IMG/VR virus record: IMGVR_UViG_3300030333_003696
Span: 1-39,819 of that record
Source of the DNA: a virus
Length of the DNA stretch: 39,819 nucleotides
Strand: one strand, 5' to 3'
Shown: positions 69-37,104 of the stretch, piece by piece
Position numbering within the stretch: the stretch's first letter is position 1
How the letters are laid out: each line of letters starts with the position of its first letter
Translations under genes and position numbers: made by a program
The notes under the pieces: generated by a model
Told to the model about the DNA's origin: nothing
Databases searched by the model: none
What the model saw: the letters and a program-made list of their open reading frames with translations, nothing else

Positions 69-97
69 AGTATAACACCGACTCATATACTTGTCAA
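69..97 (-). promoter_or_regulatory. Sigma-70-type promoter reading left
   Basis: On the minus strand, TTGACA (97-92) is followed after exactly 17 bases by TATACT (74-69), an almost perfect sigma-70 promoter. Transcription would start near base 62 and leave the window on the left. The -35 box overlaps the stop codon of the minus-strand sulfotransferase-like gene, so it serves a gene beyond the left edge. Bases 1-68 hold no complete gene that I can support. A minus-strand ATG at 5-3 preceded by AAGG could be that gene's start, but only two further bases are visible. Confidence 0.6.
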
Positions 98-1029
98 CAC
101 TTCCAGTATTTTGGAATTGTCCCAAAGTATTCTTCCCAGTCATCATAAACAAATCCCATATACTTCAATGCCCACTCATAGAGTTCAGGTGTCATATCAT
201 CTTTATCAGAATGTTGATCCTGTAGTTCGGGCACCACAGGGGCATTGCTTCCTCTGTCAGGTACATATACATTCTGATGAATATTTTTGATGGGATATTG
301 TAGAAAGTCTGAAAGTTTCTCACATTGTTCCTCTTTACGAGACTCATCCCAGAACTCTTCCATGATGACAGGATATACATTCTCCTTTCCAAAGACTCTT
401 TCAAACTTCTGTATTCCCTGTACATAGTGTGCCATCTTCCAGTCATAGAGTCTCAGTGTCAATTGATTCATATCTTCGGGTCTTGGATTCGTTCCATTCC
501 TGAGAACTTCTTGAAAGTTTTTGATATGACTCTCACCTTTTCGAGTTCTTGCTCCCACTCTGGAGAAGTATCTACGTATCGGGTCACGTAACTGACAGGT
601 CATTCGGATATTGTCAAAGTGCTTCTTCATCTCCTGTCTCAGTTCCTGAAGAAATGATTCTGGTAGATACCAGTTATGATTGGTAAAGTCTCCTACAGCA
701 TGAAACCTGCCTTCTGCTCTCTTCGCAACATTACGAAAGTATTGAATGTACTTCTCGATTGTATATGGTTCATCGAGTAGGGCGTGTGCCTCTCCTAGAT
801 CAATAAGATCCCTACCAGGAACTCCTCTCTGCCAGAAGTGATTATGATCCATGTATACAATTTTCAAAGCATGATATCTGTAAAGACTTTTTGGAATCTT
901 ATGCATCATCACCAGATATCCAGTTTCTTTCTGATGTCCCGTATGGCAATATGGATTTGATTTGATGCAGGTATAATAGAAAGGAGTCGTACCAGAAAAA
1001 CTTGTACCTGCGTTGAAGAGGAAATCCAC
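94..1029 (-). CDS. Sulfotransferase-like protein (family copy A)
   Basis: Probable PAPS-dependent sulfotransferase of 311 residues, which would move sulfate from PAPS to an unknown acceptor. Residues 6-16 (NAGTSFSGTTP) look like the 5'-phosphosulfate loop, and residues 148-156 (RDPIRRYFS) match the 3'-phosphate-binding motif of the superfamily. It shares with five proteins further right an HTGHQKETGYL block (29-39), a GDFTNHN block near 113 and a C-terminal block NVYVPDRGSNAP...LQDQ. The start is GTG at 1029-1027, chosen because the paralogues begin at the same point before the loop. It is soluble, with no signal peptide or membrane segment. It points away from the next gene, with a 26-base AT-rich gap between them. 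The substrate is unknown. Confidence 0.7.
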   Translation of the reverse strand: MDFLFNAGTSFSGTTPFYYTCIKSNPYCHTGHQKETGYLVMMHKIPKSLYRYHALKIVYMDHNHFWQRGVPGRDLIDLGEAHALLDEPYTIEKYIQYFRNVAKRAEGRFHAVGDFTNHNWYLPESFLQELRQEMKKHFDNIRMTCQLRDPIRRYFSRVGARTRKGESHIKNFQEVLRNGTNPRPEDMNQLTLRLYDWKMAHYVQGIQKFERVFGKENVYPVIMEEFWDESRKEEQCEKLSDFLQYPIKNIHQNVYVPDRGSNAPVVPELQDQHSDKDDMTPELYEWALKYMGFVYDDWEEYFGTIPKYWKC

Positions 1030-1055
1030 GATATATAATATACTAAGTATTAGTT
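1030..1055. promoter_or_regulatory. AT-rich divergent intergenic gap, possible promoter
   Basis: This 26-base gap separates the minus-strand sulfotransferase-like gene from the plus-strand oxygenase-like gene. It contains TATAAT (1034-1039) and TATACT (1039-1044) on the plus strand and TATTAT-like sequence on the minus strand. The best -35 candidate for the plus strand, TTGAAG (1013-1018), is only 15 bases from TATAAT. Either gene could be transcribed from here, but no element is convincing. Confidence 0.3.
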
Positions 1056-1559
1056 ATGATCTTTATTGAGAACGCTATCTCTACAGATTTGGTGACTCGA
1101 TGTAATGCCGAGATTGATAAGTTCTTAGAAGAGAAGAAGTTCAAGGACTCCAATAACTCGGATACAACTAGAGTCGAACAACAATTCGGAAAACTCTGGG
1201 CACACGTATCAGAAGGAATCAAAGAAGAAGTATTAGCAGCACTGAGACCACACTTTCCCAGTGAGAGACCGAGATATACAGTACGCTATCAAATACACCG
1301 TATCGGCACTCAGGAGTTCTGGCATGATCATCCATATAGTTTCGCAGTCTCTCTCTATCTCAATGACTTTCCTGTAGAGTGGGGTGGTAGGTTCAAGTAT
1401 AAACCGAAGAATGGTCGTTGGAAAGAATTAGCAGTATCTCCCAAAGCAGGTATGATGGGACTTATCAATTATAATGAGGAGCACTGTGTGACTCCAATCC
1501 TTGAAACAGCAGAGTATTCAAGAAGAGCAATCAATATCAAAGCACATCGTAAAGCATGA
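1056..1559 (+). CDS. Fe(II)/2-oxoglutarate oxygenase-like protein
   Basis: A 167-residue protein with the layout of a prolyl-4-hydroxylase-like Fe(II)/2-oxoglutarate dioxygenase. WHDHPYSFAVSLYLN (from residue 89) and WGGRFKY correspond to the first iron-binding strand and the strand after it. NEEHCVTP near residue 147 supplies the distal histidine, and YSRRAINI supplies the arginine expected to bind 2-oxoglutarate. The usual HxD iron motif reads H90-D91-H92, so the expected Asp position holds His. It may hydroxylate a small molecule, sugar or protein; the substrate is not visible. Its last four bases (ATGA) contain the start of the SGNH-like gene, so the two are probably translationally coupled. 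Family assignment is fairly sure, activity less so. Confidence 0.6.
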   Translation: MIFIENAISTDLVTRCNAEIDKFLEEKKFKDSNNSDTTRVEQQFGKLWAHVSEGIKEEVLAALRPHFPSERPRYTVRYQIHRIGTQEFWHDHPYSFAVSLYLNDFPVEWGGRFKYKPKNGRWKELAVSPKAGMMGLINYNEEHCVTPILETAEYSRRAINIKAHRKA

Positions 1560-2095
1560 AGTTCTACTTTGATGGTTGCTCGAATACATGGGGTGCCGAG
1601 TTAGCAAAACCAGAGGTGTCTCGTTACAGCAAGTTAGTGTCTGACTTCTTTTGTGCCGAAGAACACAATATTGCCAAGAGAGGTGGATCAGATAAAAGAG
1701 TGCTGCGTAATTTACTTGAAACAGACTTATCACAGTATGACTATGTTATCGTACAACTTACATGTAAGAACCGCACTGAGTTCTGGAAAGAGCAGAAGCA
1801 GACTTGGATGCAGGTGAGAAAACCACCAGACAGAAAGAATTGGTGGCACTATTACTTCACAAACATATACACGGAGAAACTTGGTGATATAAATCAATTG
1901 ACGTATTATCATGCAATGAAGAATGTGTTGAAAGATAAGAAGCATCTCATCATTGGAATCAGTGGTTGGGGTCATGTTCTCCGAGCACCTGTGGATATCA
2001 ATTTTACTGATCATCGGATTGCACCTCTTGGTCATCCGAATGAAGAAGGTCACAAGCAAATCGCTAATGAGATTATAAAATGTATATCCATATAG
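1556..2095 (+). CDS. SGNH-hydrolase-like protein 1
   Basis: A 179-residue SGNH/GDSL-fold protein, an esterase/acyltransferase-type family. Block I is DGCSNTWGAEL (residues 6-16), with Ser as the likely nucleophile. IAKRGGSDKRV corresponds to the glycine block, and the C-terminal GHPNEEGH provides the His of the last block. The Asp that normally sits three residues before this His (DxxH) is absent, so it may use a Ser-His dyad or be inactive. It overlaps the upstream oxygenase-like gene by 4 bases and the next oxygenase-like gene by 16 bases. Two more copies lie at 4150 and 11618. Possible roles are removal or transfer of acyl groups on glycans. No signal peptide, so it is cytoplasmic. Confidence 0.6.
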   Translation: MKFYFDGCSNTWGAELAKPEVSRYSKLVSDFFCAEEHNIAKRGGSDKRVLRNLLETDLSQYDYVIVQLTCKNRTEFWKEQKQTWMQVRKPPDRKNWWHYYFTNIYTEKLGDINQLTYYHAMKNVLKDKKHLIIGISGWGHVLRAPVDINFTDHRIAPLGHPNEEGHKQIANEIIKCISI

Positions 2096-2682
2096 AGAAC
2101 TGGGTGCATGGTCAGGAAGACCATTTCATCAATAAGTATTCTGATGACTTCTTCTTTCGTGGTTTATACGATAGTGTTGAGTTGATGCCAGATCATCGAA
2201 AGTATATCAGCAAGCAAGATATTCTCAACGGTATACGCAAACATAAAAAAGTCAAAGATACCATGTATGGTAAACACTGGACTGGTTATTATAAAACTGA
2301 CGAAGGAGTATATCAAGACACAGAGTTACTCAAACTGTACACACCAAAACTTGTGGAGATTCTGAAAAAGATTCGACTCTATGGTACAGGTATATTTTCT
2401 TATAGTAGTATCTGGGGTCAATTAGCAAAAGAAGGTGTGCCATGTTATATCAAGGAACACAATCATTATAAGCATCCAAAGCAAATGCTCTCATGGGTAC
2501 ACTTTGTCAAAGTGCCAGAGCAGAAGTGTTTTTATTTTTGTAAGGATGGTAAAAAAGACTACCCAGTACATCAGAAGTCTGGAGATCTTATGGTCTTTCC
2601 CAGTTATCTGTATCACGGGGTAGATGAGAGAAAGAACCTAGAGGAACGATTTGTGATTGTCGGTAATATTATAATGCTTTGA
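2080..2682 (+). CDS. 2OG-Fe(II) oxygenase-like protein (2OG-FeII_Oxy_5 type)
   Basis: A 200-residue protein. Its C-terminal half resembles the putative 2-oxoglutarate oxygenases of PF13759/TIGR02466. The shared features are a His cluster EHNHYKHP, a strand SWVHFVKVP, then GDLMVFPSYLYHGV with the distal iron-binding His, and ERFVIVGNI with the candidate 2OG-binding Arg. The N-terminal half (about 1-110) is not recognised. It follows the SGNH-like gene with a 16-base overlap, so the first three plus-strand genes form one unit. Its last 45 bases overlap the tail of the convergent aldolase gene. Substrate unknown. Family assignment rests on pattern only. Confidence 0.6.
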   Translation: MYIHIENWVHGQEDHFINKYSDDFFFRGLYDSVELMPDHRKYISKQDILNGIRKHKKVKDTMYGKHWTGYYKTDEGVYQDTELLKLYTPKLVEILKKIRLYGTGIFSYSSIWGQLAKEGVPCYIKEHNHYKHPKQMLSWVHFVKVPEQKCFYFCKDGKKDYPVHQKSGDLMVFPSYLYHGVDERKNLEERFVIVGNIIML

Positions 2683-3396
2683 TAGTACGACACTATCAAT
2701 AGTATATGGTAAGAATGTATATCCCTCTTCTTTACGTTCTTCCAGTTCTTTGAGATCTGGTTGTACTACATGAATTCCTACAGGTATCTTCTTTTTGATA
2801 CAAGACTCTTTCACATGTTTGACAATCTCCTTGAAAGCATAACTGTCGAACTGTCCAGTAATACCGAAGGATGCTGAAAGATCATAAGGACCTATCAGAA
2901 CAGCGTCAGGATTCGTGTCAAGTATTGTATTGATATTATTGACACCAAGTTGAGATTCTATCATTGCGACTAGAAATGGTTTATCGTCAAGATGTCTCTC
3001 AAACTCCGCACCATACAGATTACCTCGACAATACCCGACCCCCCTCTTTCCCTCTGGTGGGTAATACATGACTTTCTTGATTTCATCTAACTCATGCCAC
3101 ATTTGAATATTAGGAACTATGATACCTGCTGCTCCTAGATCAAGTGCTCTGCGAGCAAGTATTGGATCTGCTTTCGGTAAACGGACAAAAGGTAATGTAT
3201 TATGAAGTTCTATCGCACGACAGATGTTTGTCAGATGATTCATACCTATTGAACCGTGCTCTAGATCTACTGCTACCCAGTCTAAACCAGAACTTCCTAA
3301 TATCTCTGCAATCTCACTAGACTTTATCTGCATCCATCCACCAACAGATGCTTTTCCCTCACCTAAATATTCTCTAAGTGCTTGTACTTTTATCAT
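2638..3396 (-). CDS. HpcH/HpaI-type aldolase
   Basis: A 252-residue metal-dependent class II pyruvate aldolase of the HpcH/HpaI family (PF03328), near the usual length. Reading order fits a complete barrel: DLEHG (44-48, catalytic His47), VRLP (Arg72), GAAGIIVPN (88-96), PPEGKRGVGYCRG (113-125), MIES (metal ligand Glu147) and IGPYDLSASFG (metal ligand Asp172). Relatives cleave or form 4-hydroxy-2-oxo acids from pyruvate and an aldehyde. All key residues are present, so it is probably active. It is a single minus-strand gene between plus-strand genes, and its 3' end overlaps the convergent gene by 45 bases. In this setting it could supply or destroy a sugar-acid precursor; that is inference. 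Confidence 0.88.
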   Translation of the reverse strand: MIKVQALREYLGEGKASVGGWMQIKSSEIAEILGSSGLDWVAVDLEHGSIGMNHLTNICRAIELHNTLPFVRLPKADPILARRALDLGAAGIIVPNIQMWHELDEIKKVMYYPPEGKRGVGYCRGNLYGAEFERHLDDKPFLVAMIESQLGVNNINTILDTNPDAVLIGPYDLSASFGITGQFDSYAFKEIVKHVKESCIKKKIPVGIHVVQPDLKELEERKEEGYTFLPYTIDSVVLSKHYNITDNHKSFL

Positions 3397-3412
3397 TTAC
3401 TTATTGTAGCAC

Positions 3413-4153
3413 ATGATTACTGTTCCGTCATACGAATGTGAGCAAGGATTGAATCTGTTTTTTGTACACATACCCAAAGCGGGTGGTACATCTTTTCATT
3501 TTCCTCTTGGTTATCTATTCTTCAATCATTATTCGGAAAATAAAAACTATGAATGTTATTATGCAAAGGAAGGAAACTTCAATTATGAGTTCAAGGGGGC
3601 AAAAAACTCACTGATACGCACTCATAGAATGGATTGGGAGGAGCATTATAAACCAGAGATGGGAATCAAGGTCGCATTTTACAGAAATCCAGAAGAAAGA
3701 CTGAAATCTAGCATCAGACATTGCCGACAATTTATAGAATATCAAGAATTTCGTAGACTAATAAGTAATCCTCCACCATATCAGAGGAGTCATATAGTAA
3801 ATCCCATATCTCAGGTCACAAAAAGTGGTAAATTAGACTATCTATTGGATATTTCACTGATGAGAGAGTTGCAATCTACAGTATTATCACGTTTTGGTTT
3901 CCCAAATATAGAATTACCAGAGAAATTGCAGATGACAGAGCATATTAGAGAGGGTGAAATGGATATATTATTCAGTTTATGTGAAAGAAGAGGTTATTTG
4001 GAAGAAGATGAGAAGGTTGATGGTGTACTAAAGGAGTTGCCTGAGTGTTTGAAGGTCGAAAAAACTAAAATAAGAGAGGAGACTATGGTTTTTGACGTGA
4101 ACACTAACAGAGGTCCTCTAGAAAATTCAGATAAAGTGCCTTATTTCAAGTGA
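3413..4153 (+). CDS. Sulfotransferase, Sulfotransfer_2-like
   Basis: A 246-residue protein with the classic eukaryote-like sulfotransferase 5' loop HIPKAGGTS (19-27) and a matching 3'-phosphate-binding motif RNPEERLKS (91-99). This resembles the Sulfotransfer_2 group, which includes heparan and chondroitin-type carbohydrate sulfotransferases and acts with PAPS. It is a different branch from the six-copy family around it and lacks that family's HTG and NVYYP blocks. The start codon is ATG, 16 bases from the divergent aldolase gene. Its stop overlaps the GTG start of the next SGNH-like gene (GTGA), implying coupling. A carbohydrate acceptor is the most likely substrate, by family only. Confidence 0.8.
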   Translation: MITVPSYECEQGLNLFFVHIPKAGGTSFHFPLGYLFFNHYSENKNYECYYAKEGNFNYEFKGAKNSLIRTHRMDWEEHYKPEMGIKVAFYRNPEERLKSSIRHCRQFIEYQEFRRLISNPPPYQRSHIVNPISQVTKSGKLDYLLDISLMRELQSTVLSRFGFPNIELPEKLQMTEHIREGEMDILFSLCERRGYLEEDEKVDGVLKELPECLKVEKTKIREETMVFDVNTNRGPLENSDKVPYFK

Positions 4154-4725
4154 TTTTATTTACAGGGTGTAGTATTACATGGGGAGATGAGTTAGAACAC
4201 CGTATCCAAGACAGATTTTCTAAGTCATATCCCAATATTTCAGAGCGTGGCATGTCAAATGACATGATGGTAAAGAAAACTATAGAGTTTTTAGACAAAA
4301 CACCGCATGTAGAGTTCGTTGTAGTGCAATTTACAGTGCCTAGAAGGGTAATGTACTACAGAAACGAGTGGAAAAACCTAACTCCATGGACAAAAAGCAC
4401 CGAGGCAAGAGTATATTACAAATATTTGGACTCTCAAGAGTCTAGAATGATGAATTTATGGAAGAATGTGTATATCTTAGACCAATACTTACAGGATATA
4501 CCTCACTATTTCTGGAGATTGGGTGAATATTCAGAAAAAGATGTGAAGGAAGACTGCGTTTTTAGAAAATTGTCACCTTGGAGTGATATGGTGACCTTAT
4601 ATGACCTGATCGGCACCCCTGATGGTAGTCCAGAGAACTACGTAACAGGTCACCCCAACAAACAAGGTCACGAATTGATCGCTCAACACCTCCAAGGCGT
4701 TGTTCCAAATTCATTATACCACTGA
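4150..4725 (+). CDS. SGNH-hydrolase-like protein 2
   Basis: A 191-residue SGNH-type protein starting at GTG within the stop of the preceding sulfotransferase gene. Block I is TGCSITWGDEL (residues 5-15). SERGMSND gives the glycine block, VVVQFTV a core strand, and GHPNKQGHELIA the C-terminal His block. The acidic residue normally three positions before that His is missing, as in the other two copies. Its closest relative in the window is the copy at 11618, which shares GCSITWGDEL and the RG.SND block. The final 43 bases overlap the tail of the minus-strand sulfotransferase-like gene. Likely cytoplasmic; possible esterase or acyltransferase on the same substrate as the coupled sulfotransferase. 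Confidence 0.6.
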   Translation: MILFTGCSITWGDELEHRIQDRFSKSYPNISERGMSNDMMVKKTIEFLDKTPHVEFVVVQFTVPRRVMYYRNEWKNLTPWTKSTEARVYYKYLDSQESRMMNLWKNVYILDQYLQDIPHYFWRLGEYSEKDVKEDCVFRKLSPWSDMVTLYDLIGTPDGSPENYVTGHPNKQGHELIAQHLQGVVPNSLYH

Positions 4726-5591
4726 TCATAGTATTTGGCAAGGCATTTTCGTCCATAAGTCAAGTCATCATCAGTCAAATCCTCTGCATCAGACACCCAT
4801 TGGTCTTGTAGGTACTCATGCTTGGGTGCTTTTGTTCCCATTTCAGGATAATAGCAGTTCGGCCATAGGTTTTTGATGTCGAACTGTAAAAATTTACTAA
4901 GTTTTGCTAAGCTATCGTTCTTACCACCCCAAAGATCTTCTGAAACGATAGTTGTGGTACTAAAAACAGACTTATAATACTTTATCCTCTTGACAAACTC
5001 ACAATTTATGCTATAATCTCCCTTATTAAGATAACTCCAGAAATAATCCTTGGAAGTTGGGTATTTTTTACGTAAATTTTCATCAGTTTGGTAATGGTGT
5101 GACAATTCTGAGTATAATCTGCGAACTGGGTCTCTAAAAATTATCAAAACTTTGATTTTGAAGTGTTTTCTCAATTCTGGAGCAATTTTTTGTAAAAAAT
5201 CCAAAGGAAGAGAAGCATTACTATTAGAAAAGTCGTGAACATAGGAATATTCGTGTTTGACTCTGTGATAATGTCTAGTATAATATTTGATATAGGTTTC
5301 TAAAGTTGGTTTTTGAAATAATTCATGAATTTCGTCAATATTTTGATGAAATGCATATTTGTTCTTCATTCCGTATGGTTTATCCCACACAGGAACCATA
5401 TAATCCGTTATAAGTTTTTCATACCACGGTTTTCTCCATTTCCAAGCATCTTTTGAGTAGATATGTGATAAAAGATGATCTTCTTTCAGAATTCCAGTGT
5501 GACTACACTTATTTGCACATTGTAAAGTCAAATGAAGTGGACTTGTCGCACTCCATCCTGTACCTGCACCAATAATCAAGGGAACTCGCAT
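4683..5591 (-). CDS. Sulfotransferase-like protein (family copy C)
   Basis: A 302-residue member of the window's sulfotransferase-like family. The frame stays open upstream to 5696, but the start is placed at ATG 5591-5589 because the protein then begins MRVPLIIGAGTGWSATSP, aligned with its paralogues, and does not run into the divergent gene. Motifs are a 5' loop at 8-18, SHTGILKED (30-38), HDFSNSN (119-125), the 3'-phosphate motif RDPVRRLYS (153-161) and a C-terminal NCYYPEMGTKAP...LQDQW block. It shares a C-terminus of FGT.P...C with copy A, the other minus-strand copy. Only 10 bases separate its start from the divergent copy D. Acceptor unknown. Confidence 0.72.
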   Translation of the reverse strand: MRVPLIIGAGTGWSATSPLHLTLQCANKCSHTGILKEDHLLSHIYSKDAWKWRKPWYEKLITDYMVPVWDKPYGMKNKYAFHQNIDEIHELFQKPTLETYIKYYTRHYHRVKHEYSYVHDFSNSNASLPLDFLQKIAPELRKHFKIKVLIIFRDPVRRLYSELSHHYQTDENLRKKYPTSKDYFWSYLNKGDYSINCEFVKRIKYYKSVFSTTTIVSEDLWGGKNDSLAKLSKFLQFDIKNLWPNCYYPEMGTKAPKHEYLQDQWVSDAEDLTDDDLTYGRKCLAKYYDQWYNEFGTTPWRC

Positions 5592-5600
5592 AAATTTATC
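5589..5600. promoter_or_regulatory. Palindrome in the 10-base divergent gap
   Basis: The two divergent sulfotransferase-like genes are separated by only 10 bases. The join holds the perfect palindrome ATAAATTTAT (5590-5599), close on both strands to the T4 late core NATAAATA. If it acts as a -10 element, either transcript would start at or just inside its gene. No ribosome-binding site is visible for either start. This is a suggestion from sequence only. Confidence 0.25.
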
Positions 5601-5601
5601 T

Positions 5602-6429
5602 ATGAAACCAATTTTACTGCTAAATTCTGGTACTGCATTCTCTGGAACGTCTCCTTTACACTTCACATTGTGCATGACAAACAAATATGCACACACTGGT
5701 CTATGTAAAGAGGATTTTTACCTATTTTCTCTTCAAGAAGGTATAGAGATTCCGTTCAAACCAGATACCACAGGAAAAAAACCACCAGAACTGACAATTC
5801 ACCATGGTAAAGAGATTTTAGACGGTGAAAGATCTATAGACAAGTATATTTCTTATTATAAGTCACTATCTGAGCATTTGACAGAATATAAAGCGGTTGC
5901 TGACTTCTCAAATCAGAATGCTTGCCTCACAGAAGAATTTATGTTGAGTATCAAGGACAAATTACTTGAAGTATTTGATATTAGGGTAATTATGGTCTTT
6001 AGAGATCCAGTGCGTAGATTATTCTCTGTAGCAAACAGAAATGCACCCACAGATGCACAAGATTACATCAAAAGAATGTGTGTAGGTAAATTAGAACCAA
6101 ATGCTTACTATTCTGACATATACACAAGGCATTGTAATGTATGGGGCGAAGAAAAAGTACATCCTATCATTATGGAAGAGTTTTGGGCAGGTGATACACA
6201 ACCACTTGCAGAATTCTTAGAATTTCCATTTACAAAGATACATCCAAACGTATATTACCCTGATATGGGGAGCAGAGCACCTCATTACCCTTATTTGATG
6301 GATCAGTGGTCATCTGACGTTGAAGATCTTGATCTTGCCACACAACGGTTTGTTTTAGAGCATATGGATCACGTATATTCAAATTTTGCTAAAACTTTTG
6401 GTAGAATACCTGAGGTATGGATGAAATGA
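5602..6429 (+). CDS. Sulfotransferase-like protein (family copy D)
   Basis: A 275-residue copy and the first of four tandem plus-strand members. The 5' loop is NSGTAFSGTSP (8-18). Then come YAHTGLCKEDFYL (29-41), VADFSNQN (99-106), the 3'-phosphate motif RDPVRRLFS (134-142) and the C-terminal signature NVYYPDMGSRAP...LMDQWSSDVEDL. It appears intact and is close to a consensus of the family. The end overlaps the next copy in an ATGA junction. It is predicted cytoplasmic and PAPS-dependent; the acceptor is unknown. No strong ribosome-binding site precedes the ATG. Confidence 0.72.
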   Translation: MKPILLLNSGTAFSGTSPLHFTLCMTNKYAHTGLCKEDFYLFSLQEGIEIPFKPDTTGKKPPELTIHHGKEILDGERSIDKYISYYKSLSEHLTEYKAVADFSNQNACLTEEFMLSIKDKLLEVFDIRVIMVFRDPVRRLFSVANRNAPTDAQDYIKRMCVGKLEPNAYYSDIYTRHCNVWGEEKVHPIIMEEFWAGDTQPLAEFLEFPFTKIHPNVYYPDMGSRAPHYPYLMDQWSSDVEDLDLATQRFVLEHMDHVYSNFAKTFGRIPEVWMK

Positions 6430-7265
6430 AACCTATACTGCACATAAACGCTGGTGTGGGGTGGTCTGCGACAAAACCTTTGTGTTATACCCTTGATGAT
6501 GTAGGATACGCTGTGTGCCCTAACAGAGGCAAGACAACAGAGTGTAATTTACTCTATTATCTGTATGAAAGGCAATACAAACCAGTTCATGCAAATTTTT
6601 ACTGGCATACCCTACACAAACACAGAGGACTGGACTTTGTAAGAAAGAATACAACGTTAGATTGGTATATTGAGTATATCAAGTCGCATATTGTAAAAAC
6701 TCATAAAGGTGTCAGTGATTTCTCTAATAGTAACACTGATTTACCATTATACTTCCTAAAACAGATTGCACCCGTATTAGAAAAGGAGTTTGACGTAAGA
6801 GTGACAACAATATGGAGAAATCCAGTTAGAAGGTCGTATTCTCAGATGTCTGCATGGTATAAAGAGAAATGGAACGATAGTTATGAAAAATATCCAGATA
6901 GTATCACATATTGGAGATCTCAACTTGATAGACCATCACATCTACTACCCGATTACGTAAAAGTCTATAATACTTGGTCATCTGCCTTCAAAAAGGTGTA
7001 TCCTGTAATAATGGAAGAGGTATGGGAGAATCCTTCAGATCTGTCAAAGTTTATAGGACATAAGATCGAAAAGATGCATGCAAACGTCTATTACCCAGAA
7101 AGAGGAACTCAAAGACCTGAAATACAAGGGTTGAAAGACCAATGGAGTTCAGACCTCCAAGATTTGACTGAAGAAGACTTACAGTACGGTAGAAACAAGT
7201 TAGATTGGATATATCGCAATTATAAACATCAATTCAAGCGAATACCAGAATCATGGCAAATATAA
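6426..7265 (+). CDS. Sulfotransferase-like protein (family copy E, divergent)
   Basis: A 279-residue copy. Two ATGs are possible (6417 and 6426). The second is preferred because GAGGT at 6412-6416 is then correctly spaced, the junction becomes ATGA, and the protein begins MKPILHINAGVGWSATKP like copy D. The 3'-phosphate motif is RNPVRRSYS (131-139), with Asn in place of the usual Asp. The SDFSNSN block (97-103) and the C-terminal NVYYPERGTQRP...LKDQWSSD block are kept. The HTG..KE..YL block of the other copies is replaced by an unrelated, Cys-containing stretch (about 28-46). It may bind a different acceptor. It overlaps the next gene by 13 bases. Confidence 0.68.
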   Translation: MKPILHINAGVGWSATKPLCYTLDDVGYAVCPNRGKTTECNLLYYLYERQYKPVHANFYWHTLHKHRGLDFVRKNTTLDWYIEYIKSHIVKTHKGVSDFSNSNTDLPLYFLKQIAPVLEKEFDVRVTTIWRNPVRRSYSQMSAWYKEKWNDSYEKYPDSITYWRSQLDRPSHLLPDYVKVYNTWSSAFKKVYPVIMEEVWENPSDLSKFIGHKIEKMHANVYYPERGTQRPEIQGLKDQWSSDLQDLTEEDLQYGRNKLDWIYRNYKHQFKRIPESWQI

Positions 7266-8206
7266 AGTTACTAATCAACGCAGGTACCGCATTTTCAGCA
7301 AGTTCGCCATTCCACTACACTTTATGTTGGGATAATCGATATGCACACACTGGACACTGTAAGGAGCATCAATATTTGCGTGGATTGGAAGAAGGACGTG
7401 AAATGTGCATAGATCCGACAATGACAAGTGGTCAATACTCAGATAAGAGAATAAACAGATTATTATCGGGTCAAACAAATAAACCAACAATATTAAACGC
7501 AGATTCTCCATATGTCAAGAATCTTTGGACGCAAGACGAGATAAACGAGTTTTTTCACTCAGAATTGCATATTGACAAATATATTCGGTATTATCGTAAA
7601 CATTGGGAAAATATCAAACAAGATTACCAATCAGTCGCTGATTTCTCAAATCAGAACGGATTATTGACAAAAGAGTTCCTACTGACAATAAAAGATCAGA
7701 TATTGGAATATTTCGATGTCAAGGTCACTATTATTGCTCGTGATCCAGTAAATCGGGCATTTTCGCAATATAACCGATATGTAAAGAAAAACCCAAATCA
7801 TTCTATAGATTTTATCGATTGGGACACTTTTCCCAACTATTCAAAAATATATAAAACCCATGCATCTATTTGGGGGAAAGAAAATGTAAGATTGGTTGTA
7901 ATGGAAGAATTAGACAACCCTGCGACTCAAAAAGAGGAATTGTCGCATTTGTCAGATTTTTTAGGTTATGATATAGTCAAAGTCCATGAAAACGTTTACT
8001 ACCCGAATATGCGATCCAATTACCCAAAACACAAATACTTACGAGATCAATACACAGATAATCACGATTTAGATCAAATCATGTATGAATTGTGTGTACA
8101 GAAAAGAAAAGATATATACAGAGACTTCCAAAATACTTTTGGATACATACCAACAGAATGGGGTAATTATGAGACGAATATGGCAGTGGATAAAAGGCGA
8201 ATATAA
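7253..8206 (+). CDS. Sulfotransferase-like protein (family copy F)
   Basis: A 317-residue copy. It shows the 5' loop NAGTAFSASSP (9-19), YAHTGHCKEHQYL (30-42), VADFSNQN (128-135), the 3'-phosphate motif RDPVNRAFS (163-171) and NVYYPNMRSNYP...LRDQY near the C-terminus. Relative to copy D it has roughly 30 extra residues between the HTG block and the ADFSN block, so the acceptor-side region is variable. The C-terminus ends with a basic tail. The last 38 bases are shared in another frame with the 30-residue microprotein gene. It is part of the tandem run that begins at 5602. Confidence 0.7.
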   Translation: MANIKLLINAGTAFSASSPFHYTLCWDNRYAHTGHCKEHQYLRGLEEGREMCIDPTMTSGQYSDKRINRLLSGQTNKPTILNADSPYVKNLWTQDEINEFFHSELHIDKYIRYYRKHWENIKQDYQSVADFSNQNGLLTKEFLLTIKDQILEYFDVKVTIIARDPVNRAFSQYNRYVKKNPNHSIDFIDWDTFPNYSKIYKTHASIWGKENVRLVVMEELDNPATQKEELSHLSDFLGYDIVKVHENVYYPNMRSNYPKHKYLRDQYTDNHDLDQIMYELCVQKRKDIYRDFQNTFGYIPTEWGNYETNMAVDKRRI

Positions 8207-8261
8207 ATTATGGAAACTTCGTCGTCAAGATCCTTACATCTACGAGGACGATGACGAGTAA
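8169..8261 (+). CDS. 30-residue microprotein, basic head and acidic tail
   Basis: An overlooked small frame of 30 codons. It starts with ATG at 8169, preceded by GGGGT, and ends with TAA at 8259-8261. The peptide has a basic, Trp-rich first half (MRRIWQWIKGEYKLWKLRR) and an acidic end (YIYEDDDE). It overlaps the preceding sulfotransferase-like gene by 38 bases and the next by 11 bases, bridging the only sizeable gap in the tandem run. The strongly non-random composition and tight fit argue for a real gene. Function unknown; an amphipathic membrane or protein-binding peptide is possible. It resembles in style, not in sequence, the 50-residue protein at 35867. Confidence 0.55.
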   Translation: MRRIWQWIKGEYKLWKLRRQDPYIYEDDDE

Positions 8262-9228
8262 ACCTCAACTCCTTCTTTTTGGAGGGTGGGGTCATTCTGC
8301 TTCTACACCGTTTTATTATACCCTTGGATTAGATAATAAGTATTGTCACGCAGGTCATAAGAAAGAAACAGGGTATCTAAATGAACTTGAGAACTATGAG
8401 TTCTTGGGTAGAGAAATGTGGGGAAGTGTTAGTGACCCATATGAAAGATTGATGACGACCAAGAAACCTCGTTGGGAGGTGCCTGAGGTGCTCTCTCGTC
8501 AATCAAAGTACAATAAGCATAGCGAAGAGTTTATACGTGACTGGGTGGCACCACCACCTAGTATAGAGAAGTATATTGATTATATGCTCATACATTATGA
8601 AAATATCAAAGATGACTACCAAGCAGTCGCAGACTTTGCGAATGCTACAGGATGGTTGCGAGAGCCATTCTTGGACAAGTACGCACCGATACTCAATGCT
8701 GTATTTGATATAAAGTGTATATTCATGTGTAGAGATCCTGTATACAGATCATATTCAGATTTCAGTGCGAAGTTTACATGTAATGATCCTAGTGGTAAAC
8801 TATTAAAAGAAGGACAACTATATCCAGACATGCCACTTGAGAAACAGTATGACTCAATACATGAGATGTTCAAAGGTGAACTGGATAAGAGTTGCACCAG
8901 ATTTTATGTGGACTTTTATGTCAAGTTCAAGAAGTATTTTAATACTATGCAATTAGTCATGGAGGAGTTTTGGGAACCTGATCTGCGTGACAGTCAATTA
9001 CAGAAGTTATCTAATTTTTTAGGATATCCCATTACAAAAATACATGATAATGTATTCTGGCCACCTACTACAGAGAAGTATGAACATCTCATGGATCAAT
9101 GGGGGGCAGTAGAAGACCCCATAACAGAAGACTTATATCAATATGGTAAGAACCTTTTGTTCCCCGTATATAAACAATGGAAAGATGAGTTTGGAGTACT
9201 ACCTGATGCTTGGGGGAAATACGTATGA
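8251..9228 (+). CDS. Sulfotransferase-like protein (family copy G)
   Basis: A 325-residue copy and the last of the family. The 5' loop region is GGWGHSASTP (11-20), followed by YCHAGHKKETGYL (31-43), VADFANATG (127-135), the 3'-phosphate motif RDPVYRSYS (161-169) and a shortened C-terminal block NVFWPPTTEKYEHLMDQW. The CHxGHxKETGYL block matches copy A best, so A and G may be closest relatives. About 55 residues are inserted between the HTG-type block and the central block. GAGGA lies two bases before the ATG. Its stop overlaps the next gene's start (ATGA). Acceptor unknown. Confidence 0.7.
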   Translation: MTSKPQLLLFGGWGHSASTPFYYTLGLDNKYCHAGHKKETGYLNELENYEFLGREMWGSVSDPYERLMTTKKPRWEVPEVLSRQSKYNKHSEEFIRDWVAPPPSIEKYIDYMLIHYENIKDDYQAVADFANATGWLREPFLDKYAPILNAVFDIKCIFMCRDPVYRSYSDFSAKFTCNDPSGKLLKEGQLYPDMPLEKQYDSIHEMFKGELDKSCTRFYVDFYVKFKKYFNTMQLVMEEFWEPDLRDSQLQKLSNFLGYPITKIHDNVFWPPTTEKYEHLMDQWGAVEDPITEDLYQYGKNLLFPVYKQWKDEFGVLPDAWGKYV

Positions 9229-10274
9229 TCAATTACTGGGCGATACCAAATATGGGTAAGATGCACATGATGCAACTTATTGAAATCAATGAAAAGACAT
9301 ATACAAAAATAAAACACCCATATTACTTTTACAAACAATGGCACGACCCTAATAATTACAAGAAAAGAATAGAAAAAACATTTGTGCTTAGAAAGGGACA
9401 ATCAATAATAGAGACACCAATAAAAACTAAAACGACATTTGGACAGGTGTCTGATACTGTAGCACCTGAACTTCACCCGTTTTTGAAAGATGTTCAAAAA
9501 AGTTCTATCGACAACACTAAACTATTTTCTAATACAAGTGAAGTAGGTGGTGACATGATGTCGTCATACTTTGGTGGTGTGAATGAGAGGAAACCTCCTG
9601 ATGACTTCATGAAAGATAAAGACCCTGTTGAAGTGTTTTTTACTGACAAGTGGTTCAAAGAGTTACAAAAGCATTTCCCAGTATCACCCTCTGGAAACTA
9701 TCTTGGCACGTTTTTAGAACCTTACCTCAAAACTAACCCTCAACTTACAAGGACGATTGTAGATGATTTATTAGATGTTGATATTATTTTTGATCCTTTC
9801 TCTCTCATGGGAAAATACATGCTTGGTTATATGAAAGGAGTAGAAGAGGAGAAAACTGAACTTGAGTTATATGTGTGTAAATTTTATCAATCAAGAAAAA
9901 ATGTCATACCATACAAAGAAGATCTAGTTGATTGTTTTGCAAGTAAACTCAAGAGATATCAAAAGGGAGATCTTATAGCAAAGTATAGAAGAGATAAAAG
10001 ACTTGTGTGGCAACAACTTGACCTTGTGGTAAAAAATCTAAGAAGAATTGAAAAATACCTACAAGACGCTGACATAGAAATAGTATATTTCAATATGGAT
10101 AGAGATGACTATAAAGAGGTCTTTGGGTTCGAGAAGAATGAATTACCACGAGATGCCACACATCCAGGCGATTATCCCGAACGAAAAGTATATGAGTCAA
10201 TTGCCAAGGAATATGTTACACTTAGAAATATGAAAGATATGAGGAGGCGAAACAGATTACGTGATTGGATTTAG
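9225..10274 (+). CDS. Unrecognised protein, island-associated
   Basis: A 349-residue protein that I do not recognise. The frame can be read from a TTG at 9210, but ATG 9225 is preferred: it sits in an ATGA junction and has GGGGGA about eight bases upstream. The protein is soluble, Lys/Asp/Glu-rich and lacks a P-loop, a GxGxxG motif or membrane segments. Visible features are a proline-rich YFGGVNERKPPDDF segment near 115, a hydrophobic DVDIIFDPFSLMGKYMLGYM segment near 180-200, and a very basic C-terminus. It sits between the last sulfotransferase-like gene and the carbamoyltransferase and overlaps the latter by 14 bases, so it probably belongs to the same pathway. Confidence 0.6.
   Translation: MINYWAIPNMGKMHMMQLIEINEKTYTKIKHPYYFYKQWHDPNNYKKRIEKTFVLRKGQSIIETPIKTKTTFGQVSDTVAPELHPFLKDVQKSSIDNTKLFSNTSEVGGDMMSSYFGGVNERKPPDDFMKDKDPVEVFFTDKWFKELQKHFPVSPSGNYLGTFLEPYLKTNPQLTRTIVDDLLDVDIIFDPFSLMGKYMLGYMKGVEEEKTELELYVCKFYQSRKNVIPYKEDLVDCFASKLKRYQKGDLIAKYRRDKRLVWQQLDLVVKNLRRIEKYLQDADIEIVYFNMDRDDYKEVFGFEKNELPRDATHPGDYPERKVYESIAKEYVTLRNMKDMRRRNRLRDWI
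10241..10247 (+). promoter_or_regulatory. Strong Shine-Dalgarno site of the carbamoyltransferase gene
   Basis: GAGGAGG is the clearest ribosome-binding site seen in the window. It supports the GTG start at 10261, which is otherwise inside the end of the upstream gene. The spacing of 13 bases is longer than usual, and no other in-frame start codon lies between. Most neighbouring genes rely on overlapping stop/start codons without such a site. Confidence 0.5.
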
Positions 10275-11637
10275 TGAAGGGTTTCATGACGCTGCAGTTG
10301 CTGTAGTCAATGATGGAAAGATTTGTTATGCTACTCACTCAGAAAGATATTCTAAAAGAAAGCATGATAAACATCTTGACATTACTGCTGCGTCTACAGC
10401 ACAACTTTTATGTAAAGATGGTAAGATAGCGTTCTATGAGAGACCATGGTTGAAAAGGACTAGACAGTTCTTTGCAGGTCAGAAAGCATGGTATAGACCA
10501 AGGCATCTATCACTCAAACCCACAGAGTATCATAGTCACCATAAGTCTCACGCAGCAGCAGCGTTCCAGACATCACCATTTGATGAAGCAGCGATAGTTG
10601 TTGTTGATAGTATAGGAGAGTGGGATTGTACATCTATATGGACTGCTGAGTATAAGCAAGGTCACGCTTGCTACAAGAAGAGATGGTCGCAGTGGTATCC
10701 GCAATCTATAGGTTTATGGTACTCTGCACTTACTAAGTGGGCGGGATTGCGTCCATTGGATGAGGAATACATCTTTATGGGTATGGCAGCGTACGGTCAT
10801 CCTGTGAATATGAATGTGGTTGAGAGACAGTTACACAGAAATAATCATAAAGGTGCGAGAATAGGTAACTATAAGAAAGAAGACATCGCAAAGAGTGCAG
10901 AGAGAATACTACAGTTAGAACTCAATACCATATTCGATAGAGCATCACAGTATAGTAAGCATATATGCTATGGGGGTGGTGTTGCCCTCAACTGTGTCGT
11001 AAACACTGGACTAAGGGAAATGTATAACCTATGGATTATGCCTTGTCCTGGTGACGCAGGGGGTGCTCTGGGTGCAGCATGTCTTGCCTATGGTAAGAAG
11101 GTTGCATTTAGTCCATACTTAGGATATAATATACAGAAGTTCTGTGATCCAAGGAGAGTTGTTGATGCACTCCTCGAAAAAAGAGTCGTGGGGGTTGCAA
11201 ATGGCCGTGCTGAGTTTGGTCCTCGTGCTTTGGGTAATAGAAGTCTATTGGCGGATCCGAGAGAAGCAAGCACTAAAGACTTAGTAAACGAAATCAAGAA
11301 AAGAGATAAGTTCAGACCTTTTGCACCTGCTGTATTGGAAGAACATGCACAGGATTATTTTGATATGCCAAAACAATCAAGGTATATGTCATATGTTTAT
11401 AAATGTAAGCAACCAAGGGCGATACCTGCCTGTATACACGTTGATAACAGTGCAAGGGTACAAACAGTCCCAGAGGATTCAGAAAGCATTCTAAGACCAA
11501 TACTAGAGTGTTGGTATAAACGCACTGGTTGTCCTGTGTTGTTGAATACATCCTTGAATATCAAGGGTAAACCTATGGTAAATACGATAGGAGACGCAAA
11601 ACTATTTGAAATGAAGTATGATGTCACTGTGTTTTAG
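10261..11637 (+). CDS. Carbamoyltransferase, NodU/CmcH/TobZ type
   Basis: A 458-residue O-carbamoyltransferase that would move the carbamoyl group of carbamoyl phosphate, via carbamoyl-adenylate, to a hydroxyl of a sugar or small molecule. The N-terminal Kae1-like domain carries GFHDAAVAVV, the metal-binding HHKSHA (93-98), VVDSIGEWD and the nucleotide-binding PGDAGGALGAA. The C-terminal domain has NGRAEFGPRALGNRSLLADP (314-333), KFRPFAPAVL and GCPVLLNTSLNIKGKP, all hallmarks of the family. It is shorter than the roughly 550-600 residues of many relatives but both domains are present. Start is GTG. Its end overlaps the third SGNH-like gene. Relatives decorate Nod factors, antibiotics and some polysaccharides. 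Confidence 0.9.
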   Translation: MIGFSEGFHDAAVAVVNDGKICYATHSERYSKRKHDKHLDITAASTAQLLCKDGKIAFYERPWLKRTRQFFAGQKAWYRPRHLSLKPTEYHSHHKSHAAAAFQTSPFDEAAIVVVDSIGEWDCTSIWTAEYKQGHACYKKRWSQWYPQSIGLWYSALTKWAGLRPLDEEYIFMGMAAYGHPVNMNVVERQLHRNNHKGARIGNYKKEDIAKSAERILQLELNTIFDRASQYSKHICYGGGVALNCVVNTGLREMYNLWIMPCPGDAGGALGAACLAYGKKVAFSPYLGYNIQKFCDPRRVVDALLEKRVVGVANGRAEFGPRALGNRSLLADPREASTKDLVNEIKKRDKFRPFAPAVLEEHAQDYFDMPKQSRYMSYVYKCKQPRAIPACIHVDNSARVQTVPEDSESILRPILECWYKRTGCPVLLNTSLNIKGKPMVNTIGDAKLFEMKYDVTVF

Positions 11638-12262
11638 TGGTTGTAGTATCACATGGGGTGATGAACTACAGAATAGATTGACTGAGAGATTCAGTCACGT
11701 TGTATCCAAACATTATGGATGCCGATGTGTAAATCTTGGTGAGAGGGGATCAAGTAACGACTCAATAGTGCGTAGAACTATATCTTACCTACAGAACAAT
11801 AAAGCTGACGTGGTGGTGATGCAGTTTACTGTGGTGCAGAGAATAGAATATTTTACGCAGTCGGCAGAAGTTGAGGGGTGGACTCCGCAGAAATTAGATA
11901 ATCAGAGTAAAAGAAATTACTATAAGTTGATGTACAATGATATAGTTGGATGTGAGAACTTATGGAAGAATATATTTTTATTTGATTCATACTGTAAGAG
12001 TGTAGGACAGAAGTACGTTTCTATTATTGCAGATCATTATGAACAGACTTTGGGTAAACCAAGAAGATATTATAAAAACGAAAAAGGGTACTGGAGGAGT
12101 TTATGTAAAGATTATGAACCACTTCTCATGCATAGACAACTTTTAGGTGAACTTGATGTGAGTCCTGATCACTACTCAATGAGAGAAAAAGGTGGACATC
12201 CAACCGCTAAAGCACACAAACTTATTGGAAATAAAATCATTGAGTTGATAGACGCTATATAA
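11618..12262 (+). CDS. SGNH-hydrolase-like protein 3
   Basis: A 214-residue SGNH-type protein. Block I is SGCSITWGDEL (7-17), the glycine block is GERGSSNDSIV, a core strand is VVVMQFTV, and the last block is GGHPTAKAHKLIG. As in the other two copies, the Asp three residues before the final His is lacking. Translation could start at either of two adjacent ATGs, 11618 or 11621; both lie inside the end of the carbamoyltransferase gene (17-20 base overlap). This repeats the pattern at 1556 and 4150, where an SGNH-like gene is coupled to a group-transfer or oxidising enzyme. Possible esterase or acyltransferase acting on the same product. Confidence 0.62.
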   Translation: MMSLCFSGCSITWGDELQNRLTERFSHVVSKHYGCRCVNLGERGSSNDSIVRRTISYLQNNKADVVVMQFTVVQRIEYFTQSAEVEGWTPQKLDNQSKRNYYKLMYNDIVGCENLWKNIFLFDSYCKSVGQKYVSIIADHYEQTLGKPRRYYKNEKGYWRSLCKDYEPLLMHRQLLGELDVSPDHYSMREKGGHPTAKAHKLIGNKIIELIDAI

Positions 12263-12294: not shown

Positions 12295-13047
12295 ATGGCA
12301 AAAGGATTCAAGGTGGTTTCAAAATCACCTAATGCAGAAGAAAAATCTTTTGATATTGAAAAGGCAAAAGAACTTCTGAAAGGTAAAAGTATTGTATTTT
12401 GTTTACCTGGTAGAGGAGTATCATACATCTTTCTAAAGAATTTTGTATCACTCTGTTTTGAGTTGGTACAGAACGGAGCAAATATACAGATAGCACAAGA
12501 CTACAGTTCTATGGTGAACTTTGCTAGATGTAAGGTTCTGGGTGCAAATGTGTTGCGAGGACCTGATCAATTACCTTGGGATGGTAAATTGAATTATGAT
12601 TATCAATTATGGATTGATAGCGATATAGTTTTTAGTAATGAAGCATTCTATAGAGTTCTTGCTTTAGATAAAGACATTGCAGGTGGATGGTACGCTACAG
12701 AAGATGGTAGAACAACTTCTTGTGCCCATTGGTTAGAAGAAGATGATTTCAAAGAAAACGGTGGAGTCATGAATCATGAGATGGTTGATGGTATAGTAAA
12801 ACGTCGTAAACCATTCACTGTTGATTATTCTGGTTTTGGTTGGTTGCTAATCAAGAAGGGTGTATTTGAACATAAAGAGATGACTTATCCATGGTTCGCT
12901 CCTCAGATGCAAGTATTTGACTCTGGTGAAGTACAAGATATGTGTGGGGAAGACGTATCATTCTGTTTAGATGCAATCAAAGCAGGGTTTGAAATTTGGA
13001 TTGATCCACAATGTAGAGTAGGGCATGAGAAAACTAGAATAATATAG
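12295..13047 (+). CDS. GT-A glycosyltransferase-like protein
   Basis: A 250-residue protein with the layout of a GT-A (Anp1/GT2-like) nucleotide-sugar glycosyltransferase. LPGRGVSYIF (about 39-48) resembles the N-terminal nucleotide-binding strand. WIDSDIVF holds the DxD-type metal motif (Asp108-Ser-Asp110), FGWLLIKK a core strand and GEDVSFCLDAIKAGFEIW (218-235) the acidic motif and following helix. CRVGHEK at the C-terminus may give the last metal-binding His. It would transfer a sugar to an unknown acceptor. It is the first gene of a two-gene unit with its own promoter, between the modification island and the baseplate genes, so both a DNA/virion and a cell-envelope acceptor are conceivable. 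No signal peptide. Confidence 0.72.
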   Translation: MAKGFKVVSKSPNAEEKSFDIEKAKELLKGKSIVFCLPGRGVSYIFLKNFVSLCFELVQNGANIQIAQDYSSMVNFARCKVLGANVLRGPDQLPWDGKLNYDYQLWIDSDIVFSNEAFYRVLALDKDIAGGWYATEDGRTTSCAHWLEEDDFKENGGVMNHEMVDGIVKRRKPFTVDYSGFGWLLIKKGVFEHKEMTYPWFAPQMQVFDSGEVQDMCGEDVSFCLDAIKAGFEIWIDPQCRVGHEKTRII

Positions 13048-13299: not shown

Positions 13300-13704
13300 G
13301 TGCCCGCACAGACTTTTTCGCAAGGATTCAAAGATATTTCTTTATCCTTTAAAAAACATCCAGTTACAGATGACATCTTAGTTTTGAAAAACGAGGATGC
13401 CATCAAACGCTCTGTGCAAAATTTAGTTCGTATACAATTAGGTGAAGTTTTCTTCAATAGATTGGTAGGTACAAGAATTACTGGTTCTCTTTTTGAACTA
13501 GCGACATCTAATTATGTTGATCCAATAAAGTCGGAAATAAGCACAACAATAGAAAACTTTGAACCAAGAGTTAGATTGACTGATGTCAGATTTGAGTCTA
13601 CACCAGACGAAAATGCAATTGATATTCAAATAGACTATGACATAAAGGGTTTATCTGCACCAGGTCAAACAATAAACTTTGTTCTCGAACCAACTAGGTT
13701 ATAA
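13300..13704 (+). CDS. gp25: Baseplate wedge subunit / sheath initiator gp25
   Basis: A 134-residue protein, matching T4 gp25 (132 residues) in length, position and motif. Gp25 has a lysozyme-like fold and sits in the baseplate wedge, where it helps hold gp6 and nucleates the tail sheath. The diagnostic EPR motif is at residues 88-90 within NFEPRVRLTDV. VRIQLGEVFFNRLVGTRI in the first half is also typical. Translation starts with GTG at 13300, 21 bases after the late-promoter core. The stop overlaps gene 6 by one base (TAATG), as in a tightly coupled operon. Confidence 0.93.
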   Translation: MPAQTFSQGFKDISLSFKKHPVTDDILVLKNEDAIKRSVQNLVRIQLGEVFFNRLVGTRITGSLFELATSNYVDPIKSEISTTIENFEPRVRLTDVRFESTPDENAIDIQIDYDIKGLSAPGQTINFVLEPTRL

Positions 13705-35866: not shown

Positions 35867-36019
35867 ATGAAGTTCCATTTTCCAAAAAGGAAGTTGTACG
35901 TATATTCTTTACGTCTTCAACGTTGGCCTGTAAAATGGTGGGATGAGAAGGTGGAAGCAAAACGTAAAGAGAAGGAACTCAGACGTAAAAGAATCGAATC
36001 ACTTTATCCTAAAAAATGA
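35867..36019 (+). CDS. 50-residue basic microprotein
   Basis: A 50-codon frame with ATG at 35867 and TGA at 36017-36019. The peptide starts MKFHFPKRKLYVYSLRLQRW, continues PVKWWDEKVEAK and ends in a Lys/Arg-rich helix (RKEKELRRKRIESLYPKK). It lies between the DUF4815 gene and the first halogenase-like gene and overlaps the latter in an ATGA junction, so it is likely translated. Its strongly basic, aromatic composition suggests nucleic-acid, membrane or protein contact, but I do not recognise it. Style recalls the 30-residue protein at 8169. Confidence 0.65.
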   Translation: MKFHFPKRKLYVYSLRLQRWPVKWWDEKVEAKRKEKELRRKRIESLYPKK

Positions 36020-37104
36020 AGATTAGTGTTGTTGGTGCAGGTAATGCAGGTTGCTTTACCGCACTACACTTTGGTTATTATACAAGACATGAAAAGAATA
36101 TAGAAGTAGAACTAATCTATAATCCAGATATACCTCCTGTTGCATACGGACAAGCAAGTATGCCTACTCAATTATTATTGCTTGGTGATAGTATGGGATT
36201 TGATTGGTACAATAATTTTGTGCATGCTATTCCTAAGAGTGGTATTGTATACGAAGGGTTTGGTAAAAAAAATTACGAATGGTTTCATCCATATCCTAGA
36301 AGTGTTGTAGCAATGCATTTCTGTCCATCAGAAACACAAGAGAGTATATTGCAATCTGGTTATTTTACAGTCAAAGAGGGTGATGTAGATCCTCTTGATG
36401 TAGATTCTGATTTTGTTATTGATTGTCGTGGTACACCTAAGGATTTTGATAATTATGAAGAGTTGAATAATCCTACGAACGCTTGTATATTAGCTAGACC
36501 TAATTGGGATACAAATGTTATTTGGAGTAGGCATGTAGCTACACCTGATGGGTGGGCATTTGTAATACCCACGAAAGAAGATGCTCCATCAAGAGATGGA
36601 AGTGTGGGTTATTGTTATAATAAAGATATCACTACACCTCAAGAAGCTGAAAAAAATATGCTTGAGATGTTTGATGTTGATATTATAAAACATACAACTT
36701 ATAAAAATTATGTTGCAAAAAATCCTGTAGTTGATAATAGAGTATTCTTGAATGGTAATAGATTATATTTCTTAGAACCCATGGAATCAAATGCTGTGGA
36801 GACATATATCATGTGGTCTAAGTACATCTTTGATTTCTTGAATGGTAGAAAAACTATTGAGCAAAGTAGTGCTGCAATCAAACATTACATTGAGGGGGTG
36901 CAAAACTTTATATTATGGCACTACCAATTTGGGTCTATATACAATACACCTTTCTGGAACTATGCCAAGGAATTGACATTTGAGGATCAAGAGTTTGATG
37001 ACACTCTTGCAAACATCTACACTAGGGGAGATGACAAGTACTTAGCGTACAGTCAATGGGGTAAGTGGAGTTTCAGAAATTGGCATAAAGGTATGGTATT
37101 ATGA
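36016..37104 (+). CDS. Flavin-dependent tryptophan-halogenase-like protein 1
   Basis: A 362-residue FAD-dependent halogenase-like protein. The FAD-binding GxGxxG is VVGAGNAGCFTAL (5-17). GQASMP (45-50) corresponds to the GEATVP-type strap. Lys74 in IPKSGI aligns with the catalytic Lys (Lys79 in PrnA) that handles hypohalous acid. WAFVIP (180-185) replaces the usual WxWxIP, with Phe for the second Trp, and LEPMES (253-258) holds the catalytic Glu257. It is shorter than tryptophan halogenases (about 500-540 residues). A related viral enzyme, VirX1 of cyanophage Syn10, was reported to iodinate varied small molecules. A flavin reductase is not seen nearby. It overlaps its paralogue by four bases. 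Confidence 0.82.
   Translation: MKISVVGAGNAGCFTALHFGYYTRHEKNIEVELIYNPDIPPVAYGQASMPTQLLLLGDSMGFDWYNNFVHAIPKSGIVYEGFGKKNYEWFHPYPRSVVAMHFCPSETQESILQSGYFTVKEGDVDPLDVDSDFVIDCRGTPKDFDNYEELNNPTNACILARPNWDTNVIWSRHVATPDGWAFVIPTKEDAPSRDGSVGYCYNKDITTPQEAEKNMLEMFDVDIIKHTTYKNYVAKNPVVDNRVFLNGNRLYFLEPMESNAVETYIMWSKYIFDFLNGRKTIEQSSAAIKHYIEGVQNFILWHYQFGSIYNTPFWNYAKELTFEDQEFDDTLANIYTRGDDKYLAYSQWGKWSFRNWHKGMVL

Follow-up and report, generated by a model that had tools for sequence, protein, structure and literature searches.

The virus record IMGVR_UViG_3300030333_003696 of IMG/VR was analyzed over 39,819 nucleotides (39.8 kb of a 42.6-kb record; referred to here as the window), with emphasis on an array of sulfotransferase-like genes at positions 94 to 9228. 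The window is a fragment of a T4-like cyanophage. Six genes of the array belong to a phage-specific family of many orthologue groups that is under selection and combines a sulfotransferase fold with a rebuilt donor loop. There is about an even chance that their products are enzymes that depend on 3'-phosphoadenosine 5'-phosphosulfate (PAPS), each copy placing sulfate at a distinct position or on a distinct sugar of a surface glycan.

Six related genes in the window

An array of seven sulfotransferase-like genes, six of them diverged paralogues, had been proposed in a first-pass annotation of the sequence. All seven open reading frames (ORFs) were recovered. Six form one family, with 31-44% identity end to end and more than 30 invariant columns; the gene at 3413 lies outside it. 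A profile made from the six retrieved exactly those six in the record, with scores of 374-429 bits, far above chance. The proteins of the family consist of a single domain of about 300 residues.

Two of the genes are located on the minus strand, at 94-1029 (orthologue group a, loop GTSFSGTTPF, 422 bits, in a clade with loci L016 and L038) and at 4683-5591 (group C, loop GTGWSATSPL, 420 bits, found in 16 loci). Four follow on the plus strand, at 5602-6429 (group I, loop GTAFSGTSPL, head-to-head with the group C gene), 6426-7265 (group D, loop GVGWSATKPL, 17 loci), 7253-8206 (group G, loop GTAFSASSPF) and 8251-9228 (group E, loop GWGHSASTPF, 11 loci). These four had been described as overlapping in tandem; three of them do overlap, by 4 and 13 bp, and the fourth is separated by 44 bp. 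The start of the gene at 4683 was set to 5591 and not to 5696, because the starts of relatives coincide with it at MRxPLI and either lie 10 bp away from the neighbouring start codon or overlap it. The gene is therefore free of overlap with the gene at 5602, and the divergent start codons of groups C and I are 10 bp apart (window 5589-5604). In L010, L013, L016 and L017, both divergent ATG codons overlap as CATG, which leaves no space for separate leaders except within the neighbouring gene.

Predicted fold

The group G protein (gene at 7253) was modelled with AlphaFold2 from an alignment of 106 sequences, at a predicted local distance difference test (pLDDT) score of 92.3. The top Foldseek match of the model was 6xl8, heparan 3-O-sulfotransferase 3 (3-OST-3; E 1e-6, probability 1.00). 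Superposition with VIA-align gave a Z score of 16.8 over 222 residues at 3.1 Å for 6xl8 and of 16.4 for the sulfotransferase domain of NDST1, and lower scores for tyrosylprotein and cytosolic sulfotransferases (Z 10-12.5). A profile match to the bacterial sulfotransferase 3rnl was also obtained (E 2.7e-8). The predicted fold is thus that of the heparan-type sulfotransferases. Structure prediction had been suggested as a check, to be failed if no PAPS-binding fold appeared or if the proteins belonged to an unrelated P-loop family. The best matches are PAPS sulfotransferases, and assignment to nucleoside triphosphate kinases or another P-loop family was rejected, as kinase matches in Foldseek were weaker and a Walker-A lysine (GK[ST]) is absent from all members.

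Donor site and catalytic residues

The position of the 5' loop that holds the PAPS-binding lysine or arginine (position 14) is aromatic in all 236 members that have it, and lysine or arginine in none. The phage residue is tryptophan, phenylalanine, tyrosine or histidine, within a pattern G-x-G-[W/F/H/Y]-S-A-T-x-P as against GVGAQ[K/R]xGTTW in cellular proteins. At position 167, directly after RDPx, 221 of 237 phage members carry arginine or lysine. The 24 cellular relatives in the joint alignment have lysine (19) or arginine (5) in the loop, and mostly glutamate (20) or aspartate (3) after RDPx. The remainder of the site is retained: R163 of the 3'-phosphate motif is present in 232 of 237 members and S171 in 101 of 106, and a glutamate in the region of the 3-OST type KExxxF motif was found in 209 of 236 members and in all six window copies. 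We take this glutamate to be the counterpart of the catalytic base of 3-OST-type enzymes. Changes in loop and motif alongside retained arginine, serine and glutamate argue for a concerted change and not for decay.

Each copy had been said to keep both a 5' loop and a 3'-phosphate motif. The latter (RDPxxRxxS or RNPxxRxxS) is indeed kept in all six; the loop is recognisable by its position and by its glycines and threonine alone, and its lysine or arginine is absent from six of six.

The first phage loci were recruited with a pattern on the 5' loop itself. Since this could bias the loop towards aromatic residues, a second set was recruited by other motifs. Recruiting bias was rejected as the cause, because the result was unchanged with this second set and in the 125 members that miss the recruiting pattern.

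Orthologue groups and selection

Clustering of 202 full-length copies at 50% identity resulted in 38 orthologue groups. Only 7 of the 202 copies repeat a group within a locus, which is rarer than chance (permutation P 0.001; 0.014 without near-duplicate loci, remaining relatedness being ignored). The six window copies represent six groups. In the phylogeny that the first-pass annotation had asked for, each of these has members in other phages, and the closest relative of every copy lies in another phage and not beside it in the array. The nearest relatives of the gene at 94 are only about 50% identical to it. The ratio of nonsynonymous to synonymous substitutions (dN/dS) against relatives was 0.07-0.22 for five of the six copies (0.11-0.22 for the group C gene); for the sixth, synonymous sites were saturated.

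The right-hand neighbour of the group C gene varies between phages, being a member of group I, D, N, F, O or b, yet the junction beside the group C gene holds within a few bases in many phages. The pattern is one of specificities shuffled as a set. The presence of distinct, old orthologue groups that are seldom repeated supports different targets and not gene dosage. The earlier suggestion of one enzyme per position is borne out insofar as the copies are separately conserved groups and not recent duplicates.

Distribution and cellular relatives

The family was found in 76 IMG/VR loci, with up to nine copies per whole record. The gene density, at first regarded as unusual for a virus, is therefore not unique to the window but typical of this uncultured phage group. 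At least three copies are carried by virus AG-345-D19, which was obtained from a plate of extracellular sorts (PMC6122165). Cultured phage isolates in the collection searched gave no family match, a tblastn search of isolated phages with a host homologue gave no match, and no description of the phage family was found in the literature searched.

A scan of 85,000 species genomes with two peptide patterns, which are of limited reach, gave no cellular copy. Profile searches covered 400 Cyanobiaceae and 386 Cyanobacteriota genomes; the sole matches were distant canonical relatives, and no family member was among them. Such relatives were present in 60 of the 400 Cyanobiaceae genomes, the best at 86 bits as compared to mostly 250-430 bits for family members. 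In the best of them, the alignment is free of gaps across the N-terminal loop, and the relatives scanned pass the Sulfotransfer_1/3 cut-off. One adjoins a lipopolysaccharide-type GT25 gene and another a weakly matching GT2-like glycosyltransferase gene. By these searches, the family is phage-specific as far as seen so far.

APS (adenosine 5'-phosphosulfate) kinase, the PAPS-making enzyme, is encoded by the host; its gene was not found in the records of 23 relatives, many of which are fragments. PAPS would therefore have to be made by the host.

The gene at 3413

The gene at 3413-4153 (plus strand) encodes a possible canonical sulfotransferase of the Sulfotransfer_2 type. It has the canonical PKxGGTS loop (PKAGGTS) and RNPxER motif (RNPEER), but its score against Sulfotransfer_2, the type assigned earlier, is weak (16.4 bits, below the cut-off of 22 bits). 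The match to a galactose-3-O-sulfotransferase of PHROG was likewise weak (E 0.0028). AlphaFold2 gave a pLDDT of 28 from an alignment of only three sequences; the only relatives found were in L003 (93% identity) and L046 (26-29%).

Phage context and neighbouring genes

The description of the window as phage DNA was supported: T4-type baseplate genes in the window, together with cyanophage marker genes in array-bearing relatives, identify it as a T4-like cyanophage (Kyanoviridae-like). The array sits upstream of the baseplate wedge genes gp25 and gp6 (13300-15815, plus strand; starts at 13300 and 13704), which place it in the T4-like baseplate region. Further baseplate wedge proteins (gp7/8-type) are encoded at 24097 and 27267. 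The closest relatives of the gp6 protein are cyanophage gp6 proteins, and psbA is present in two long array-bearing records, one with a second Photo_RC gene, taken as psbD. In Synechococcus phages, variable genes are known to concentrate in a hot-spot that extends from gp46 to gp25 (PMC3037559). Elsewhere in the window, two tryptophan-halogenase genes are located in tandem (36016-38195).

Three types of gene recur beside the array: gp25 (64 of 76 loci), a NodU-type O-carbamoyltransferase (10261-11637, plus strand; 64 of 76) and a putative glycosyltransferase of phrog_1574 with weak matches to glycosyltransferase PHROGs (12295-13047, plus strand; 66 of 76). The phrog_1574 gene is fixed next to gp25 in about 100 cyanophages. 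SGNH-hydrolase-like proteins are encoded on the plus strand at 1556-2095 (motifs GCSxTWG and GHPNxxGH), 4150-4725 and 11618-12262; they constitute a second multi-copy family, with 207 ORFs in these loci and a maximum of ten per locus, reached in L038. Between the array and the carbamoyltransferase gene, a conserved protein without a family match is encoded at 9210-10274 (plus strand; 14 loci, 33-97% identity). Similar-looking "YWGG" proteins are encoded in L014 (740-1645 and 4334-5089). A 2OG-Fe(II) oxygenase gene (2080-2682, plus strand) and an HpcH/HpaI-type aldolase gene (2638-3396, minus strand) also lie in this part of the window.

A candidate manA cis-regulatory RNA (RF01745) is located at 1-63 on the minus strand, directly after the gene at 94-1029, and is cut by the contig end. 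Such candidates were found near the arrays of five of eight relatives scanned, in full in L014, L017, L038 and L057 and in part in L015; the one in L057 directly precedes a family gene at 11292. The literature connects manA RNAs to the sugar metabolism of marine phages (PMC2864571). The array-bearing L015 also holds a nucleotide-sugar epimerase gene (Epimerase/GDP_Man_Dehyd, 2829-3677).

Proposed function and alternatives

The best-supported reading is that the family works like a PAPS sulfotransferase. It was probably taken from the sulfotransferases of picocyanobacterial hosts, within the heparan-type (Sulfotransfer_1-3) branch. Its members would still bind host-made PAPS, and the arginine gained beside the 3'-phosphate motif (RDPxRR for the cellular RDPx[E/D]R), together with the rebuilt loop, would take over charge neutralisation. 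Each copy would act on its own position or sugar of a glycan, which may be host lipopolysaccharide or exopolysaccharide or a glycan on the virion, with the NodU-type carbamoyltransferase, the putative glycosyltransferase and the SGNH-type (acyl) enzymes as partners. The repertoire itself is seen in the sequences: it holds a single copy from each of many old groups, and these are exchanged by recombination among phages at a constant site next to the baseplate genes. The phages would probably benefit from an altered surface, by which competing phages may be excluded or adsorption to debris reduced; this would explain the mix-and-match turnover.

Several observations weigh against this reading. 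Lys614 of NDST1, the loop lysine, is described as catalytic acid and donor anchor at once (PMC3733922), and its universal loss in the phage family could mean that no sulfate is transferred. As the donor-handling residue is aromatic across the family, PAPS-dependent transfer has to be inferred and is not given, and filing these proteins as ordinary PAPS sulfotransferases is unjustified. Profile searches, the other check that had been suggested, brought one of the six window copies to the Pfam cut-off of Sulfotransfer_1 (the product of 7253, 22.0 of 22 bits) and left five below it, and Sulfotransfer_1/3 matched 14 of 106 family members at E 0.01; Pfam alone would therefore overlook most of the family. 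The synteny of the locus is co-location and no proof of a shared pathway. Finally, within the 9 kb before gp25, lineages with more array genes tended to have fewer SGNH genes (negative correlation between lineages, Spearman -0.70). A paired two-part system of both gene families was rejected on this correlation.

A broader formulation, possible but doubtful, leaves the donor partly aside: a phage-only branch has put an aromatic residue in the place of the donor lysine and moved the charge to the new arginine, and its repertoire, which recombines and comprises 38 groups with up to nine copies per contig, writes a variable pattern on a surface glycan or on the virion, the donor possibly not being PAPS. 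It is rather unlikely that sulfate transfer was lost altogether while the fold and the 3'-phosphate site were kept, so that another 3'-phosphoadenosine donor is used or another reaction is catalyzed, with the aromatic residue stacking on donor or acceptor. The aromatic loop in 236 of 236 members, the nearby exchange of aspartate or glutamate for arginine or lysine in 221 of 237, and the retention of the 3'-phosphate arginine and serine and of the glutamate would all fit such a switch. However, the catalytic glutamate persists in 209 of 236 members, the closest cellular relatives are ordinary sulfotransferases, and we know of no alternative donor for the sulfotransferase fold. That the proteins are non-catalytic binders, lectin-like or inhibitors of host sulfotransferases or of 3'-phosphoadenosine 5'-phosphate, diversified for different ligands, is improbable. 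The absence of the catalytic lysine from all members and the presence of many diverged groups, each represented once per phage, would agree with binding, but pure binders should not have retained the glutamate and the 3'-phosphate motif at a dN/dS of about 0.1.

The target may also differ from that of the PAPS-dependent glycan reading. Sulfation of virion proteins, at tyrosine or at protein-bound glycans of tail fibres or baseplate and not at host surface glycans, is conceivable though not favoured; the fixed place of the array next to genes of the baseplate region, gp25 and gp6 among them, points in this direction, and the structural matches include tyrosylprotein sulfotransferases (TPST) with a lower score (Z 12.5). 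The glycan sulfotransferases fit clearly better (Z 16 to 17), and the position may merely reflect the gp46-gp25 insertion hot-spot (PMC3037559). As to the number of genes, the tandem layout with overlaps would suit six recent duplicates kept for gene dosage. Recent tandem duplication was rejected on the tree, on the six separate groups and on the below-chance frequency of same-group repeats, and is hardly credible.

Comparison with known systems

HS3ST1/3/5 and the NDST domain (Sulfotransfer_1) share with the phage family the fold predicted for it over 220-230 residues (Z 16-17), the order of elements, a glutamate in a KExxxF-like motif and the RDP..R..S 3'-phosphate motif. They differ in the loop lysine or arginine, replaced by tryptophan, phenylalanine, tyrosine or histidine in the phage proteins, and in RDPx[E/D]R, replaced by RDPxRR; the phage family moreover has its own C-terminal motif (NxYxPDxG..AP...DQW), and identity is 11-17%. 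The closest cellular relatives found, the sulfotransferases of Cyanobiaceae (the family of marine Synechococcus and Prochlorococcus; e.g. L172-L181), align over residues 2-251, but have the loop GVGAQ[KR]xGTTW, score at most 86 bits and usually give one match per genome. Among solved structures, the Alicyclobacillus sulfotransferase 3rnl is the best sequence-profile match, which spans only the middle third (positions 150-249).

Previous reports of sulfotransferases in phages describe scattered, single genes whose function is unclear (PMC10580990). The Sulfotransfer_3 proteins of S-SRM01 and an OM43 phage are likewise phage-encoded and of sulfotransferase fold (PMC10580990); that of S-SRM01 carries a canonical PRSGST loop, is a single copy in its genome and is not a member of the family. 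In rhizobial Nod-factor decoration (NodU, NodH), carbamoyl- and sulfo-type enzymes also stand side by side. This is an analogy only: no genes for lipo-chitooligosaccharides were seen in the phage locus, and its sulfotransferase-like copies are far more numerous.

The family has been mostly overlooked by Pfam, PHROGs and NCBIfam, and constitutes a mix-and-match set in ocean cyanophages, within a decoration locus beside the baseplate genes. If its members are active in sulfate transfer, they would make up a viral system of combinatorial sulfation and offer a second way to perform this chemistry, one that does without the 5'-loop lysine. If they catalyze something else, they would represent a new activity on a well-studied fold.

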